Shown piece after piece: positions 18,583-32,285 of a stretch of 64,000 bases of DNA. Origin of the DNA: Aureococcus anophagefferens. Taxonomy: Eukaryota; Sar; Pelagophyceae; Pelagomonadales; Pelagomonadaceae. The stretch covers positions 223,947-287,946 of the forward strand of contig NW_008705577.1 of assembly GCF_000186865.1 (NCBI RefSeq), read 5' to 3'. Under the pieces are notes generated by a model. The model saw only the letters and a program-made list of their open reading frames with translations. It did not search any database and had not been told where the DNA came from. The number at the start of each line of letters is the position of its first letter. Within the stretch, counting starts at the first letter, position 1. The translations under genes were made by a program, and so were the position numbers.

Positions 18583-19581
18583 CTATTTCACGCGCATCCG
18601 GTGCCTGGCGCCCTTGAACCAGTAGTTGACCTGCGTCGCGTCGAGGCCCGTCTTCACCATGAGCTGCTCCTTCTCCTGCCGCGTCGGGTACGGGTTGTCG
18701 AAGTGCGTGCTGAGCCACTCCTTGAGGATCGACACCGCGTCCGGGGTGTGCTGGTGGCTCGGCTTTAGATTGGGGCCGGCTCGGACGCGGCACTCTTTCC
18801 CCCTTCTCCTCTCGTTCTTGAACCAGTGGTTGACCTGCGCCGCGTCGAGGCCCGTCTTCGCCATGAGTTGCTCCTTCTCCTGCCGCGTCGGGTACGGGTT
18901 GTCGAAGTGCGTGCTGAGCCACTCCTTGAGGATCGACACCACGTCCGGGGGAAACGGGTGATGGCTCGGTTTTAGATCGGGGCGTCGCAGATCCTGATCC
19001 AGAGCTGCGATGTCTTTCGCGAGCTGTCTGCACTCGGCGAGATGCTCAGCCCTCTTCTTGTTGTTTCGCTCGCGAAGCGCCTCGACCGACGTCAGGAGGT
19101 CCGTCACGCTGTCCTCGCAGCTGCTAATGTGTGCTTGGATGAGTTCGAGCTTGCCCTTGAACGAGTTGAGCTCATCGAAGGCAACCGTTCCGTCGGCCTC
19201 GTATTTCACGCACACGAGGAGCCCGGCGACGCCCGGCGACCGCCTCGGCGTCGCCTGCGCGCGGCAGTCCGGGCAGAGCCACGCGGCGCCCGGCGCCGGG
19301 AACTCGCGGAGGCCGACGCACTCGAGGTGGAACCAGCTCCGCCCGGAGCCGCACGCGTCCCGCCGGTCGCACTGGACCATGCGCCCGCCGCCGTCGCCGC
19401 CGCAGACGCAGTAGCCCCCCGAGTCCTCGGAGACCTCGTCGCCGTCGCCCGGGAGGCCCGCCTCGCCGTAGTCGCGGCGGCCGGGCCGAGTGGGTCCCCA
19501 CAAGAGGCGCACGTTCTTCTGGACGCGCGCGCGGCCCGCGTCGTCGAGCGCGGCGCCGTAGAGCGCGCGGCCGGCGCGCAC
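18583..19581 (-). CDS. PHD finger plus two TALE-type homeodomains
   Basis: A continuous frame of 332 codons. About residues 57-110 form a C4HC3 PHD finger (YCVCGGDGGG, then CDRRDAC, WFHLECVGL and WLCPDC), a histone H3 tail reader. A coiled-coil segment follows (about 140-190). Then come two homeodomains with the PYP of the TALE three-residue loop extension: the first ends QVNHWFKNERRR, the second QVNYWFKGARHRMR. The second has Gly where nearly all homeodomains have Asn51, which contacts DNA. At DNA level the two are a 204-bp in-frame tandem duplication. The first codon given is GTG, so the true ATG and an upstream exon are missing; a frame near 19651 (SSAGAPPLAALKAAL) is a candidate. Probably a nuclear transcription regulator. 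Confidence 0.8.
   Translation of the reverse strand: MRAGRALYGAALDDAGRARVQKNVRLLWGPTRPGRRDYGEAGLPGDGDEVSEDSGGYCVCGGDGGGRMVQCDRRDACGSGRSWFHLECVGLREFPAPGAAWLCPDCRAQATPRRSPGVAGLLVCVKYEADGTVAFDELNSFKGKLELIQAHISSCEDSVTDLLTSVEALRERNNKKRAEHLAECRQLAKDIAALDQDLRRPDLKPSHHPFPPDVVSILKEWLSTHFDNPYPTRQEKEQLMAKTGLDAAQVNHWFKNERRRGKECRVRAGPNLKPSHQHTPDAVSILKEWLSTHFDNPYPTRQEKEQLMVKTGLDATQVNYWFKGARHRMRVK
18617..18979. repeat. Tandem duplication, period 204 bp, of the homeobox
   Basis: Copy near 18617-18775 and copy near 18821-18979. Runs of more than 80 bp are identical (around GGGTACGGGTTGTCGAAGTG), which implies a recent duplication or gene conversion. Confidence 0.85.
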
Positions 19582-19940
19582 CGTCGCGCGACGATGCGCC
19601 GCGCAGCGCCGCCTTGAGCGCCGCGAGCGGCGGCGCGCCCGCCGACGACAACCGCGCGTTATAAGCTTGCCGCGCGACGCGCGTCGCGGCGAGATTTGAT
19701 GCGCTGATCCGAGGGCGTCACCAGCGGCCGTGGCGCATGTTCGGTCTCAGCAGGCCCCCAGACTCCATGCTCCGGGCTGCTGCCCTGGTTAACGTTGACC
19801 TTCAATGCCGCATAAACGCGGCATCACTGAAGCCGCAAGCTTGCAGAGCGCGGCCACGATCGCAAGTTGATCCTCGATAAAGCGACGCGCACGACGTGCA
19901 AGCTGCTGCGCGCGCCCCCCAAAACACCCCCCGTGCATCG
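19582..19940. other. Spacer, no gene seen
   Basis: A short AT-richer stretch with no frame of interest. It should hold the missing 5' exon or promoter of the homeobox gene and the promoter of the signal-peptide gene on the plus strand. Confidence 0.4.
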
Positions 19941-22590: not shown

Positions 22591-22596
22591 CGTCGA

Positions 22597-22823
22597 GCTA
22601 CGCGAGGAGCGGTCCCGCGGTCCGGCGCGCGTCCGCGGCCGCGCGGCCGCCCCAGGCAACGATGACGTCCTCGTCGAGGTCGCGCAAGCGGGCGCTCTCG
22701 GAGTCGGAGCCGGCCTCCGCGAGCTACGCGAGGAGCGGTCCCGCGGTCCGGCGCGCGTCCGCGGCCGCGCGGCCGCCCCAGGCAACGATGACGTCCTCGT
22801 CGAGGTCGCGCAAGCGGGCGCTC
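22597..22823. repeat. Tandem duplication, period 126 bp, containing the start codon
   Basis: A segment of about 105 bp (GAGCTACGCGAGGAGCGGTC to AAGCGGGCGCTC) occurs twice, 126 bp apart. Each copy carries the same ATGACGTCCTCGTCGAGGTC, so the receptor-kinase gene has two identical in-frame start contexts at 22662 and 22788. Confidence 0.9.
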
Positions 22824-25655
22824 GTCGCGCTCGTCGCGCTGGCGGTCCTCGGGAGGACCGCGCACGCGGACTCCTTGCCGACGGCGGCGCCGTCGACGGC
22901 GGCGCCTTCGACGGCGGCGCCTTCGACGGCGGCGCCGTCGACGCTCCTGCCGACGCCACTGCCGTCGCCTTTTCCGACGACGGCCACTCCGTCGCCGCGG
23001 CCTAGCGTGCCACCGACGACCTCGACCGCTCCGTCCTCGGCGCCGAGCGCGAGCCCGTCGCCCGCACCGAGCAGCGCGCCGTACGAATCGAACCATCGAA
23101 GCCTGGCCTCCGGGTCTGGGCCGACGGCGTCCCCCGTTCCTTCGCCGCGGCGCGCGCCTTACATCCTTCACCGCAGGTCCGTCGTCCCGACCGCGGCGCC
23201 TATGCCCGCGCCGACGCGCGGCCCGACGCCGCTCCCGACGGCGCTCCCGAGCGGCCGGCCGTCGCCGGCGCCGACGCCCGTGCCCGAGCCCGTGCCGAGC
23301 TGTGTGGAAATCAACCAGTGAGCTGGGACGTCGGGGCCAAACTTCAGAAATCTCTAGCTCGGTCAAATCGAAGTCGATTCGGCTGATTTTTTGGACGAAT
23401 CGATTGCTCTCGTCGAGTTCTCGAAGCACAGCGAAATAGTCTGGTCCAAACCGTTCGATTACGCGCACATTGAAGTCGGATTCAAGATTTGATTTCCACA
23501 CAGGTGCCGAGCGCGGCGCCGACGTTGCCGCCGACCTTCCATCCGACGGCGGTCTGCGGCGAGGACGTGCTCGACGCGTGGGCCCTCGCGACGTCCTTCG
23601 AGGACGGCTGGGGCGAGTGGTCCGGCGGCGAGACGTACGACTCGTCCGACGGCTGGTCCTGCGACGGCTTCGACCGCTGCTGGAGCCGGGCCCGCGAGTC
23701 CAACGCCGACGGCGACGCGACGGGCGCGACGGCGCCGTCCGACGGCTCCTGGTGGGCCTTCGTGGAGAGCAGCAACGACGGCTGGCAGTCGGCGGACCCG
23801 GACGACTCGCACCCGAGCAAGCGCTTCATCCTGCGGTCGCCGCCCTTCCCCGCGAGCCTCGGCGACGGCTCGGGCCTGCTCTGGCCGCCGAGCTGCGAGC
23901 TCGCGCTCGCCTTCGACTACGCCATGTACGGCGCGGACGTCGGCGAATTGAGCCTCGTCGCCACGGGCTGCTTCGACGACGACGCCGCGGACTGCAGCGA
24001 CTGCTTCGACGCGGCGGCCTGCGCGCTGACCTGCGGCGCCTGCGGCGACGCCGACGCGGAGACGACGCTCTGGTCCGCGTCGGGCGACCAGGGCGACGCG
24101 TGGTTCTCGACGCTCGTGGAGGTGCCGACCTGTGCCGGAAACAGCCAGTGGTTTGGGACGTCCCGACCAAACTTCAAACCTCTCTCTAGCTCGGTCAAAT
24201 CGAAGTCGATTCGGCTGATTTTTGGACGAATCGATTGCTCTCGTCGAGTTCTCGAAGCAGAGCGAAAGAGTCTGAAACCGTTCGATTACGTTGAAGTCGG
24301 CTTGAAGATTTGATTTCCACGCAGGTCCCGACGGGCACGGCGACGCTCGAGTTCGTCGCGGTGACGGGCGCGGGCGCGCTGAGCGACTTCGCCCTCGACT
24401 TCGTGCGCCTCGCGCCGTCGCCGTCGCCCGCGCCGACGGCGACGGCCTACCCGACCGCGGGGCCGTCGCCGACGCCGACGCCGGCGCCGTCGGCGTCGCC
24501 GACGGCGCCGCCGTCCGCCGCGCCGACGCCCCTGCCCGAGCCCGCGCCGTCGCCGGCGCCGTCCTTCAACCCGTCGCCGGCGCCGTCGCTGCGGCCCTCG
24601 CCGGCGCCGTCCGCGTCGCCGTCGCCCGCGCCGTCGGCCGCGCCGATCCCCGCGCCGTCGCCGTCGCCGACCCACGCGCCGACGCCCGCGCCGACGATGT
24701 TCCTCGAGCCGACGCCCGCGCCGTCGGCGACGCCGTCGCTCATGCCGACGTCGTCCCCGGGCTCCGGCGGCGGCTCCGGCGGCGGCCCGGGCGCGGGCTT
24801 CGCCGTCGGCATCGCGCTCGGCGTCATCGGGTTCCTGGCCTGCTGCGGAGCCGAGAAACGGTGATTCACGCTTCGCGAGTATGACTTCCCCGAGAGACCG
24901 CTCTGAGAGACCACTCCGAGAGACCACTGCTCGAGAGACCGCTCCGAGAGACCGCTCCGAGAGACCGCTCCGAGAGACCGCTCCGAGAGACCGCTCCGAG
25001 AGACCGCTCCGAGAGACCGCTCCGAGAGACCGCTTCGAGAGACCGCTTCGAGAGACCGCTCCGAGAGACGATCTAACATCGCACGAATCGAAATTCCCGC
25101 CTTTCCTAGGCCTGCTGCGTCGCCGGCTGCGTCGGCTACCGCGTCTACACGGACAAGACCGACGCGCCGCCGTCCAAGTACGCGGCCCAGGAGTCCAAGG
25201 ACGAGGAGCGCGGGTCCTTCGACAACGGGCGGCCGCCCGAGTACGAGCTGCGCCAGTTCGTGCGCGACGCGCCGGACGGGCCGCGGCCGCCGGCGGGCCG
25301 CTGGTCCGAGGAGGACGCGCTCCTGCGCGGCTGCGTCGACGCCGACGCCGAATTGCTGATGGACGACCCCACGGACAGCGTGTCCGTGGACCTCGTCGAC
25401 GGCGAGCGGCCCGCGGGGCTCCTCGACTCGACGGAGGGCTGGCCCCTCGAGGTCCTCGCCTTCGCGCGGCGCGCCGAGGACGGCGGCTCGCCGCCGCCGC
25501 GGTCGAGCGTCGAGGCGATCCGCGCGGACGCGCGGTCCCAGAGCGACCGGGGCCGGACGTCGCGGACGTCGTCGGCGTCCCAGGACGACGGGGCGACCTA
25601 CGACCGCCTCGTGCAGCCCCGGCCCCGCGCGCCGACGCGCGAGTCGGACCCGCCG

Positions 25656-25689
<34 letters not shown>

Positions 25690-27146
25690 TGCGGACGTCG
25701 TCGCCGCGGTCGGCGGCGCCGCGGTCGCCGCGGTCGCCGCGGTCGCCGCGGCGCCGCGCGGCGACGGCCGTCGGCGACTTCGACGTGACGCACATGATCG
25801 GCAAGGGCGCCTTCGGGCGCGTGCTCCTGGCGTCGAAGCGGTCCGGGAGCGAGCGCGGCCGCGCGTTCGCCGTCAAGGTGCTCGACAAGGAGGTCGTCCG
25901 CGCGACGGGCCAGGCGGCGCACACGCGCGCGGAGCGCGAGACCCTGGCGTCGCTGCGCCACCCCTTCGTCGTGCGCCTGCGCTACGCGTTCCAGTCCAAG
26001 GAGCGGCTCTACCTCGTCACGGACTTCTACGCGGGCGGCAGCCTCGAGCGCCACATGGACGACGCGCACCCGACGGGCCTGGGCGACGCGCGGACGGAGT
26101 TCTACGCGGCGCAGCTCGTGTCGGCGCTGCGCCACTGCCACGCCGCGGGCGTCGTGCACCGCGACATCAAGCCGGGCAACGTCCTCGTCGACAGCCGGGG
26201 CTACTGCGCGCTGACGGATTTCGGGCTCTGCGCGCTGGGCGTCCTCGAGGACGGCGCGCCGCTGCGGTCCTTCTGCGGCACCGTGACCTACATGGGGCCC
26301 GAGCTCCTCGTGGGCCAGGCCTACGGCACGTCCGTCGACTTCTGGGCCCTCGGCGCGCTCGTCTTCGAGATGGCGTCGGGCCGGCCGCCGTTCGAGGACG
26401 CGAACCGGCGGCGCATGTTCTACGCGATCCTGCACCTGCCGCCGCCCTTTCCTTTGGACTTCTCCAACGAGTTGATCGATTTGCTGAGCGGGCTGTTGGA
26501 GAAGCGGCCGGAGCGGCGCCTCGGCGTGAAGCGGCCCACCCCAAAACCGAAGCCCGACGAGGCGAAGACGCCGTCGAAGAAGAAGCGCAAGCCGTCCGTG
26601 CTCGGCGCGTTGCTCTCGCGGTCGTCGTCGCGGGGCGCCGGCGACGACGGCCCCGACGAGGCCGCGGCGCCGGGCGACGGCGACGACGGCGACGACCGCT
26701 TCTCCCGGGGCGACGACGAGCTCAAGCGGTCCGCGTATTTCGCGAACGTCGACTGGGCGGCGCTCGTCGCGCGCCAGCTCGCGCCGCCCTGGGTGCCGAA
26801 CCTCGTCGACGACCACGACATCGCCTACGTGCCCAAGAAGGTCGCGGACCGGCGCTCCGCGAGCCTACAGGACGAGTTCCGCGACGACGGCCTCCCGGCG
26901 TCGCGCGGCGGCGAGGCGCGCATCTCGCGCCAGACGGCGTCCTTCCAGATCGACGACGACAACGCCGACGCGTCGGCCGTGCGCCGCCTGCGCCAGCAGA
27001 ACCCCTGGGCCGACTTCAGCTTCGCGGCGCCGCCGCGCGGCGAGACCGTCGCCGCGCGCGCGCCCGTGGACATGATCCGGCCGCCGCCCGCGCCGCCGCG
27101 CGAGCGGAAGAAGGACCGCGCGCGGTCGCCCGCGAACGCGTCGTAA
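22788..27146 (+). CDS. Predicted MAM-domain receptor with a cytosolic AGC kinase
   Basis: Exons 22788-23291, 23504-24121, 24325-24837 and 25110-27146, all phase 0, give 1,223 residues. Order: signal peptide (RALVALVALAVLGRTAHADS); Pro-Thr stalk to about 185; a MAM-like domain at about 190-405 (ATSFEDGW, LALAFDYAMYGADVGELSLV, LWSASGDQGDAWF, DFALDFVRL) with an inserted Cys-rich loop; a second PT/PS stalk; a transmembrane helix at about 530-556 (GFAVGIALGVIGFL joined to ACCVAGCVGYRVY); an acidic juxtamembrane region with poly-Pro; and a kinase from about 768. Kinase features: GKGAFG loop, AVKV lysine, HRDIKPGN, TDFGLC, SFCGTVTYMGPE. The AGC-specific C-tail FANVDWAALVARQLAPPWVP and a hydrophobic motif WADFSF follow. 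Introns 1 and 2 are introners; intron 3 (24838-25109) needs a GC donor. The start at 22788 puts the signal peptide first; 22662 would add 42 residues. Ligand and pathway are unknown. Confidence 0.8.
23300..23503 (+). mobile_element. Introner element (copy 2)
   Basis: A 204-bp element between exact 8-bp duplications GTGCCGAG (23292-23299 and 23504-23511). The terminal inverted repeats are perfect over 15 bp (CTGTGTGGAAATCAA). The 212-nt intron runs from the GT of the left duplication to the element's final AG and rejoins EP-VPSAAPT in phase 0. It shares the core TCGGCTGATTTTTTGGACGA with the other copies but has different ends from copies 1 and 4. Confidence 0.92.
24130..24324 (+). mobile_element. 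Introner element (copy 3)
   Basis: A 195-bp element between GTGCCGAC (24122-24129) and GTCCCGAC (24325-24332), a 7 of 8 match, so slightly older or mutated. Its right end TTTGATTTCCACGCAG matches copy 2; the left end CTGTGCCGGAAACAGC has drifted. It is inserted within the MAM-coding part of the same gene as copy 2. The intron of 203 nt rejoins TLVE-VPTGTATLEF in phase 0. Confidence 0.9.
24838..25109 (+). other. GC-AG intron with CGAGAGACCGCTC minisatellite
   Basis: The intron begins GCCTGCTGCG and the downstream exon begins with the same ten bases, so the two ends look like a target duplication. Only a GC donor here joins the transmembrane frame to the kinase frame. Inside, CGAGAGACCGCTC is repeated about ten times (24893-25075). 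If the intron is kept, the protein stops at 24862 just after the membrane helix. Confidence 0.7.
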
Positions 27147-30887: not shown

Positions 30888-30986
30888 TCACTCCGCAAGC
30901 GCGCGCGCGCGCAATCAAGTCCACTCCGAGTAGCGGCACTCCTGTGCTAACGTACAGTCCATTCCGCAAGCGCGCGCGCGCGCAAT
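30888..30986. promoter_or_regulatory. Direct repeat upstream of the bestrophin gene
   Basis: A segment of about 26 bp, ATTCCGCAAGCGCGCGCGCG and CAAT (first copy ACTCCGC), occurs at 30889-30914 and 30961-30986, the second ending 34 bp before the start codon. Alternating GC purine-pyrimidine runs could adopt Z-DNA. A regulatory role is a guess from position. Confidence 0.45.
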
Positions 30987-31019
30987 ACAGTCACTGCGAC
31001 GACCGGCAACCTCGACAGC

Positions 31020-32285
31020 ATGGGCAGCGCTCAAAAAGCCGGCGACGCGAAGTCGCGCCGGCCGTCGTGGAACTTCCTCCTCGTGGAGAGCAGCGGCGAC
31101 CTGCGCAACGACGTCGTCGCGCTCCGCGAGCAGTGCCCGAAGGACACGAGCCTCACCGCGTCGAAGATCTCGGCGCGCTGCTCCATCTCGTCAGTGTGGG
31201 ACGGCGCCATGTGGGAGGACCACCACTCGACGTGGCGCTACTATCGCAACCTCGCGCGCATCCACAAGTCCACGGTCTTCCGGAGCGTCTGGCCCTTCGT
31301 CGCCGCCATGGTCGTCTACTCGCTGCTCGTGCAGTACTTCTGCACGGCGCAGCTGTCGCTCGGGACGCGGTCGTCGCAGGCGTCGTCGATCGGGCTCCTC
31401 CTCGTCTTCCGCACGAACCAGGCCGCCGCGCGCGCGCTCGAGGGCCGCCGCGTGCTGGGCACGATCAAGCGCCAGGCGACGTCCATCGCGGCGCTGCTCC
31501 GGACCTGCGGCGCGGACGCGGCGGTCGTCGACGTAGCGTCGCGCTACTGCGCGCTCGCGGTCTGGGCCGTCAAGGGCGCGGTCCGCCGCGGCGGCGACGA
31601 GGCGAGCCGCTTCGCCTACGAGAGCCTGCTCCCGGCGAGGGAGAAGCGCTGGGTGGCCAAGCACCAGGGCTTCGACGACCGCGTGAGCCCGTCGACGGTC
31701 GCGCTGCGGCTCCGCTACGCGGTCCGCGAGGCGACGTCCTGCGCCGTGACGCGCGATCGCCTCGAGGCGGCCGTCGAGGAGCTCCAGTCGGCCTACGGCG
31801 GCTGCGACCGGTTGTACACGACGCCCATCCCGCCGGGCTACCTCCGCCACATCAGCCGGTCGCTAGTGATCTGGCTCGCGCTGCTCCCGTTCTCGATCGC
31901 GTCGTCCCACTCGCCGGCGACGCTGTCGGTGACCGTGTCCGTGACGTCCTACCTCCTCCTGGGCATCGACAACATCGCGACGCAGATCGAGGAGGTCTTC
32001 TCCGTGCTGCCCATCCACGAGCTCGCGCTGTCCACGTCCGCGCACGTCGCCGCCATCGCGGACGGGCCCGCGCCGCCGGCGCTCGTCGAGCCCGCCGCGC
32101 CGCCGGTCCTCCGCGTTGCCGGCGACGCGGAGCGCGCGCGCCTCGAGGCCCTGCGGCGCGAGGCGGCGGCCGCCGAGGCGCCGGCCAGGTCCGCGCCGCC
32201 GGGCCTCCCGAAGGCCTTCCCGAGCCCGGGCCGCGGCGTCGCCGAGCGCGTGGCCGAGCAGGTCCTCGAGCCGGAGTCGGACTGA
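31020..32285 (+). CDS. Bestrophin-family anion channel
   Basis: 421 residues. Bestrophins form pentameric anion channels; algal members carry chloride or bicarbonate, some in thylakoids for the carbon-concentrating mechanism. Family hallmarks: RRPSWNFLLVES near the start, a first hydrophobic pair around 85-130, TTPIPPGYLRHISRSLVIWL, and the highly conserved GIDNIATQIEEVFSVLPI. The last 80 residues are Ala/Pro-rich and cytosolic or stromal. There is no clear plastid signal peptide, so plasma membrane and plastid are both open. Start ATG at 31020 follows the repeat-bearing promoter. Confidence 0.88.
   Translation: MGSAQKAGDAKSRRPSWNFLLVESSGDLRNDVVALREQCPKDTSLTASKISARCSISSVWDGAMWEDHHSTWRYYRNLARIHKSTVFRSVWPFVAAMVVYSLLVQYFCTAQLSLGTRSSQASSIGLLLVFRTNQAAARALEGRRVLGTIKRQATSIAALLRTCGADAAVVDVASRYCALAVWAVKGAVRRGGDEASRFAYESLLPAREKRWVAKHQGFDDRVSPSTVALRLRYAVREATSCAVTRDRLEAAVEELQSAYGGCDRLYTTPIPPGYLRHISRSLVIWLALLPFSIASSHSPATLSVTVSVTSYLLLGIDNIATQIEEVFSVLPIHELALSTSAHVAAIADGPAPPALVEPAAPPVLRVAGDAERARLEALRREAAAAEAPARSAPPGLPKAFPSPGRGVAERVAEQVLEPESD

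Follow-up and report, generated by a model that had tools for sequence, protein, structure and literature searches.

A candidate AGC-group receptor-like kinase with a MAM ectodomain in the pelagophyte Aureococcus anophagefferens

Introduction

AGC kinases are normally soluble or lipid-recruited effectors that act downstream of receptors. In animals, the MAM receptors ALK/LTK and PTPmu/kappa combine a MAM ectodomain and a single transmembrane (TM) helix with an intracellular signalling enzyme. For the oomycete P. infestans, a kinome report lists 47 AGC kinases and gives TKLs as the only kinases with TM domains (PMC3019232).

Here we analyzed a locus at positions 22788-27146 (plus strand) of a 64,000-nucleotide stretch of the Aureococcus anophagefferens genome (contig NW_008705577.1, positions 223,947 to 287,946), which is called the window below. 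The locus probably codes for an AGC-group Ser/Thr kinase of receptor-like design and type I topology that crosses the membrane once, with a MAM domain on a mucin-like stalk outside and an AKT-related kinase inside, and we put the probability of this reading, which covers architecture and receptor-like identity, at roughly 0.78. The predicted protein shares with AKT/PKB, SGK, and S6K the kinase core, the T-loop context SFCGT, and probably the C-tail with its hydrophobic motif. It differs from them in that a TM helix fixes it to the membrane and the ectodomain is a MAM domain; it gave no PH domain match, its T-loop residue is Ser, its hydrophobic motif begins with Trp, and 59 residues are inserted ahead of the C-tail. 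Compared with ALK/LTK and PTPmu/kappa, an AGC Ser/Thr kinase replaces the tyrosine kinase or phosphatase. The receptor-like kinases of oomycetes are likewise stramenopile proteins with signal peptide and TM helix, but they belong to the TKL group, whereas the window kinase falls into the AGC group (PMC3019232). No AGC-group receptor kinase of such a design was found in the literature searched, mostly at the level of titles and abstracts.

Results

Gene structure and homologs with the same domain order

The genome searched comprised 49.05 Mb in 86 contigs, and the window is a stretch of one of them (C17). Four phase-0 exons joined to a 1223-residue protein without internal stops (coding sequence of 3672 bases), which contained, from N- to C-terminus, a signal peptide, a Pro/Thr stalk, one MAM domain, a second stalk, one TM helix, a long juxtamembrane region, and an AGC kinase with its C-tail (coordinates in Table 1). 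An earlier, sequence-only reading of this DNA had described four phase-0 exons, a signal peptide with Pro-Thr stalks, one TM helix completed over an exon junction, and the AGC kinase motifs with C-tail and WADFSF, and all of these were recovered in the spliced frame. The signal peptide was judged by eye, with a basic n-region, the core ALVALVALAVLG, and a cleavage-like site between AHA and D. Duplication of the start region has produced two in-frame ATGs, at 22662 and 22788, of which the second appeared by eye to give the better signal peptide.

The sequence-only reading had pointed to the same domain order in other organisms as a check, and six homologs (P0001, P0002, P0003, P0004, P0005, and P0007) were found to carry a MAM-like domain, a Pro/Thr stalk, a TM helix, and the kinase in this order in continuous frames, so the MAM-TM-kinase join does not depend on guessed splicing. 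Kinase identity to the window protein was 80-87% (P0006 and the fragment P0007 included), while the ectodomain was 48-56% identical, with the Cys pattern kept among relatives (P0006, with 4 columns, excluded), and the stalks were 35-47% identical in aligned columns. P0003 comprises 4 JGI contigs, the longest of 83,945 bases, and because of this length we take it as genomic, which would make the join intronless there. P0004 (45 members) bears the source label merc, which probably stands for the Marine Eukaryotic Reference Catalogue, presumably of metatranscriptome origin.

Several records were not counted as joined. P0008 and P0242 combine another kinase N-lobe with a C-lobe of the family and look chimeric by eye; P0006, P0238, P0239, and P0241 lack the ectodomain and start in or after the TM helix; and P0121 has MAM and TM, but its MAM is shortened and its end aberrant. 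A scan of viral contigs gave 36 pattern matches and no relatives. Two further receptor-like kinase designs were seen in P0128 (an Aureoumbra transcript) and P0013, one with an FG-GAP ectodomain, a Pro/Thr stalk, a TM-like segment, and a kinase, and a second with a Pro/Thr-rich ectodomain, a TRP-like membrane region, and an AGC-like kinase.

Kinase and juxtamembrane region

The window protein matched Pfam Pkinase at 1.7e-58, and the best solved-structure matches of its kinase were AKT2 (2.1e-65), AKT1, S6K1, and SGK1, followed by RSK and PKC. Of the two kinase profiles named in the sequence-only reading, Pkinase was thus matched but Pkinase_C was not among the matches at E<=1, and the same Pfam search gave no match to a PH domain. 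Catalytic motifs were intact in each of the nine family members, the window included, whose sequence extends over the activation loop. The AGC hydrophobic motif has the consensus F-x-x-F/Y-S/T-F/Y; all eight family sequences reaching it read W-x-D-F-S-[F/Y], which differs at the first position.

FastTree analysis of 62 kinase domains (five sequences with a matched piece of <200 residues were left out) recovered the receptor family as a single clade (support 1.0), whose sister group was formed by L007 and L012 (0.91), two other kinases encoded in the genome. The enclosing group consisted of pelagophyte AGC kinases (0.96) and joined oomycete and ochrophyte AKT-type kinases (0.93), while the link to S6K2 and sck1 had a support of only 0.44. 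On these matches, the kinase belongs to the AGC group, nearest to AKT/S6K/SGK. Scoring of 150 out of 300 candidates in the genome gave 95 matches at E<=1e-20; the nearest other kinase among them was 46% identical, and they included no close paralogue.

The juxtamembrane motif LDS..GW was common to the family and absent from 29 other kinase frames, which are those with returned loci among 94 other genome kinase matches. A TM helix was found in none of these 29 in the same frame, where a helix in another exon would escape, as it does for this gene. At about 25570-25600 of the window, just before ASQDD[W/G]ATYD, the strain records vary, and P0237 and P0240 seem to carry an insertion or intron sequence there; the motif itself has G in the window and W in the aligned family members.

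Ectodomain

The whole window protein matched Pfam MAM (PF00629) at 7.1e-6 and 26.4 bits, which is exactly the cut-off of 26.4 bits, and the isolated domain reached 32.9 bits. This profile match bears out the MAM assignment of the sequence-only reading, but the several MAM-like blocks seen there were rejected in favor of one domain split over exons 2 and 3. All seven family ectodomains matched MAM at E<=1 (best 9.6e-9), and two of the six joined homologs were over the cut-off on the whole protein. Searching an ectodomain profile against solved chains gave 10 matches at E<=10, nine of them MAM proteins; matches included MDGA1 (5.5e-7), neuropilin-2 (0.0032), enteropeptidase (0.017), and neuropilin-1 (0.09). 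None of four isolated six-Cys inserts matched any Pfam family at E<=10, ShKT (PF01549) included. AlphaFold prediction of full-length P0004 had a mean predicted local distance difference test score (pLDDT) of 36, and its structure search gave nearly only matches to the kinase N-lobe.

The ectodomain of this gene occurred a single time in the genome, as two exon pieces. The five other Pfam MAM matches of the genome were open frames on other contigs, at least one of which (L001) has a Pro/Thr stalk.

Third intron and transmembrane helix

Donors for the third junction were sought at 24750-25059, and GC/GT-AG junctions that keep the frame were counted. Seven such junctions were found, all using the acceptor before 25110, and since all seven keep the kinase in frame, the joined protein is independent of the exact donor. 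The most hydrophobic helix came from the GC-AG junction at the start of the direct repeat (GFAVGIALGVIGFLACCVAGCVGYRV; 19-residue Kyte-Doolittle mean 2.5). The alternative GC donor at 24850 gave 2.41, and the GT donors at 24805 and 24823 gave less hydrophobic helices, 2.01 for the better one (24823). GC-AG (24838-25109) is thus the best-supported reading of the predicted junction and is preferred to GT-AG. At this base composition, the probability that two given places share 10 bases by chance is about 7e-6, before the choice among seven junctions. Search of the genome for other copies of intron 3, which skips simple repeats, found only the intron itself. One hydrophobic segment above the threshold was present in the window protein and in five of the six joined homologs; P0007 had a second, in its divergent C-terminal end.

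Introner origin of introns 1 and 2

Intron 1 and intron 2 are both copies of a single mobile introner element, which is a correction to the sequence-only reading. Of 1734 candidates in the genome, 40 were scored and proved to be 92-100% identical, so at least 40 copies exist. Eight copies were read with their flanks, including those of the window (L040 and L043 share flanks and may be one insertion), and all eight had perfect 8-bp target-site duplications and the ends CTGTGTGG...CCACACAG. Read in one orientation, the duplication of each copy (L036-L043) opens with GT or GC, which suggests that GT and GC donors may both be recruited from the target-site duplication. P0122 aligned to the spliced window protein at 97.6% over 412 residues without gaps, spanning both introner junctions, and this is an independent check of introns 1 and 2.

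PMC9860276 describes TSD-flanked (target-site-duplication-flanked) introns like these two; for Symbiodinium it reports a mechanism in which the 5' splice site is taken from the duplication and the element supplies the 3' site, and GC donors range from 0 to 50% by family. Introns 1 and 2 differ from the Aureococcus sp. introner of that paper, in which the 5' and 3' sites both lie on the element and 12 bp are added. Introner origin is a feature of the gene and says nothing of its function.

Features of the locus and neighboring genes

Table 1 Features of the candidate receptor-like kinase gene, in window positions
Feature	Position	Strand	Details
Tandem duplication of initiator region	22594..22823		126-bp unit, 1.8 copies, 100% matches
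Exon 1	22788..23291	+	Initiator Met, signal peptide, first Pro/Thr/Ser-rich stalk
Signal peptide	about 22788-22868	+	MTSSSRSRKRALVALVALAVLGRTAHA; judged by eye
Intron 1	23292..23503	+	Introner; 8-bp target-site duplication GTGCCGAG; inverted ends CTGTGTGG...CCACACAG; 5' splice GT inside duplication
Exon 2	23504..24121	+	Bulk of MAM domain, from 23555
Six-Cys insert within MAM	23969..24043	+	ShKT-like by eye
Intron 2	24122..24324	+	Second introner copy; duplication GTGCCGAC / GTCCCGAC, 7/8 bases alike
Exon 3	24325..24837	+	Final MAM strands (to 24417); second stalk, rich in Pro/Thr/Ser; Gly-rich linker; N-terminal half of TM helix
TM helix	24796..25145	+	Spliced as 24796-24837 + 25110-25145; GFAVGIALGVIGFL joined to ACCVAGCVGYRV
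Intron 3	24838..25109	+	Putative GC-AG; splits TM helix; direct repeat flanks; if retained, stop 24862-24864
Direct repeat flanking intron 3	24837-24847 and 25109-25119		11 bp, GGCCTGCTGCG
Minisatellite inside intron 3	24890-25069		13 bp
Exon 4	25110..27146	+	Second half of TM helix, juxtamembrane region, kinase, C-tail
Juxtamembrane region	25146..25769	+	Conserved motifs DAELLMDDP, LDSTEGWPLEVL, DD[G/W]ATYD; poly-Pro tract
AGC kinase domain	25770..26528	+	GKGAFGRV, FAVKVL, HTRAER, HRDIKPGN, DFG
Activation segment	26217..26303	+	DFG...LRSFCGTVTYMGPE; Ser at AKT2 T-loop Thr position
Insert, kinase core to AGC C-tail	26529..26705	+	59 residues
AGC C-tail	26706..27143	+	YFANVDWAALVARQLAPPWVP, RISRQTAS, hydrophobic motif WADFSF at 27006-27023

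Elsewhere in the window, a 387-residue frame on the minus strand (18586-19746) combines a PHD finger with two tandem KN/TALE homeodomains, to our knowledge an unusual combination, and a bestrophin-type channel (PF25539, 1.6e-35) lies on the plus strand at 30951-32282.

Discussion

The analysis shows in which order the domains stand, that relatives conserve this order, and that the catalytic motifs are intact. The proposal of the sequence-only reading, a single-pass Ser/Thr receptor-like protein from AGC parts, gains support from the MAM match and the joined homologs and is the reading that we prefer. In this receptor model, the MAM domain would bind a surface or matrix partner, either a glycan or, on a neighbor, a molecule of the same kind, and this binding would cluster the receptor. 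Its own TM helix would hold the kinase at the membrane in place of the lipid-binding PH domain of AKT; the T-loop Ser and the hydrophobic-motif Ser would then be phosphorylated, either by a PDK1-like kinase or by trans-phosphorylation, and the phosphorylated kinase may signal on basophilic substrates. For the sensing steps taken alone, we would give roughly even odds.

Several points weigh against the receptor-like reading. The exon joins of the window gene are predicted from genomic DNA, and the best third junction requires a GC donor. Only P0004, P0005, and P0002 of the six joined homologs reach the N-terminal end of the ectodomain; P0001 begins within the MAM, P0007 close to its middle, and P0003 shortly ahead of it. 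Two of the six end early in the kinase: P0005 stops within the domain, and the sequence of P0007 becomes divergent in the activation loop. Four of the six are under the Pfam MAM cut-off on the whole protein (E 0.0011 or better), and the APE motif reads GPE in the window, with APE in all eight other members that have the site. P0122 (97.6% identical, 27 members) ends in GFLACCGAEKR at the stop equivalent to 24862, and the NCBI model P0240 (JL720_11237) joins MAM to the exon-4 region, skipping exon 3 and much of the kinase; it is 94% identical to the window protein over 220 ungapped ectodomain residues and 85% and 98% over two further pieces.

A membrane-tethered kinase whose ectodomain is a structural anchor in the wall or matrix, holding extracellular material and transmitting no signal, is the strongest competitor, though we regard it as unlikely. 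MAM also occurs in the five other genome frames, at least L001 of them Pro/Thr-stalked; against an anchor, the 48-56% identity and conserved Cys pattern of the ectodomain suggest a specific partner. Stalk identity does not separate anchor from sensor.

The receptor-like reading is compatible with the use of both forms of the transcript, in which splicing would give the receptor kinase and retention of intron 3 a kinase-less membrane decoy (MAM-TM-GAEKR). The TM segment persists in the retained frame (2.15) and the intron has a GC donor, but the retained stop may merely feed mRNA decay, and we consider this possibility rather improbable.

More improbable still are two genes, one for a MAM-TM surface protein whose frame stops at 24862 and another for a soluble AGC kinase with its start inside exon 4. 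The genomic frame does close at 24864, the retained-intron stop is where P0122 ends, and P0237 is a kinase frame of its own (98.9% identical over 529 residues, 16 members). However, the longest contigs of P0122 and P0237 (6208 and 6259 bases) both exceed the coding sequence, and the N-terminal 40 residues of P0237 are not alignable to the window protein, so we take both records as probable unspliced genomic DNA of other strains without introners 1 and 2. Six homologs also run continuously over the stop point, and exon 4 begins with the second half of the TM helix and has no Met before residue 84, which falls within the conserved DAELLM/DDP block. Misassembly or chance adjacency was rejected on the six continuous homologs, and a chance reading of the TM helix on the helix at the same place in homologs (P0003 AFLCCCAAFIYRR, P0004 ALLCCCVAFVYRR).

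The receptor-like reading places an AGC kinase, predicted here to be the membrane receptor itself, where an effector below a receptor would be expected. Judged from protein sequence, an AGC-type receptor kinase class is largely supported, a receptor design for which we found no description in the literature searched. More tentatively, and at slightly less than even odds, a class of receptor Ser/Thr kinases peculiar to pelagophytes may have arisen when an AKT-like AGC kinase gained a TM helix and MAM, so that direct extracellular sensing of cell-cell or cell-matrix contact replaces lipid-triggered recruitment; the literature searched gave no description of such a signaling logic. The genome has this ectodomain a single time, and its nearest other kinase shares 46% identity, so knockout or knockdown of the gene could be interpreted. 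If the reading is true, receptor kinases have been built from the AGC group too, beside the TK, TKL, and STKR types, and there would be a concrete surface sensor to study in this bloom-forming (brown-tide) alga.

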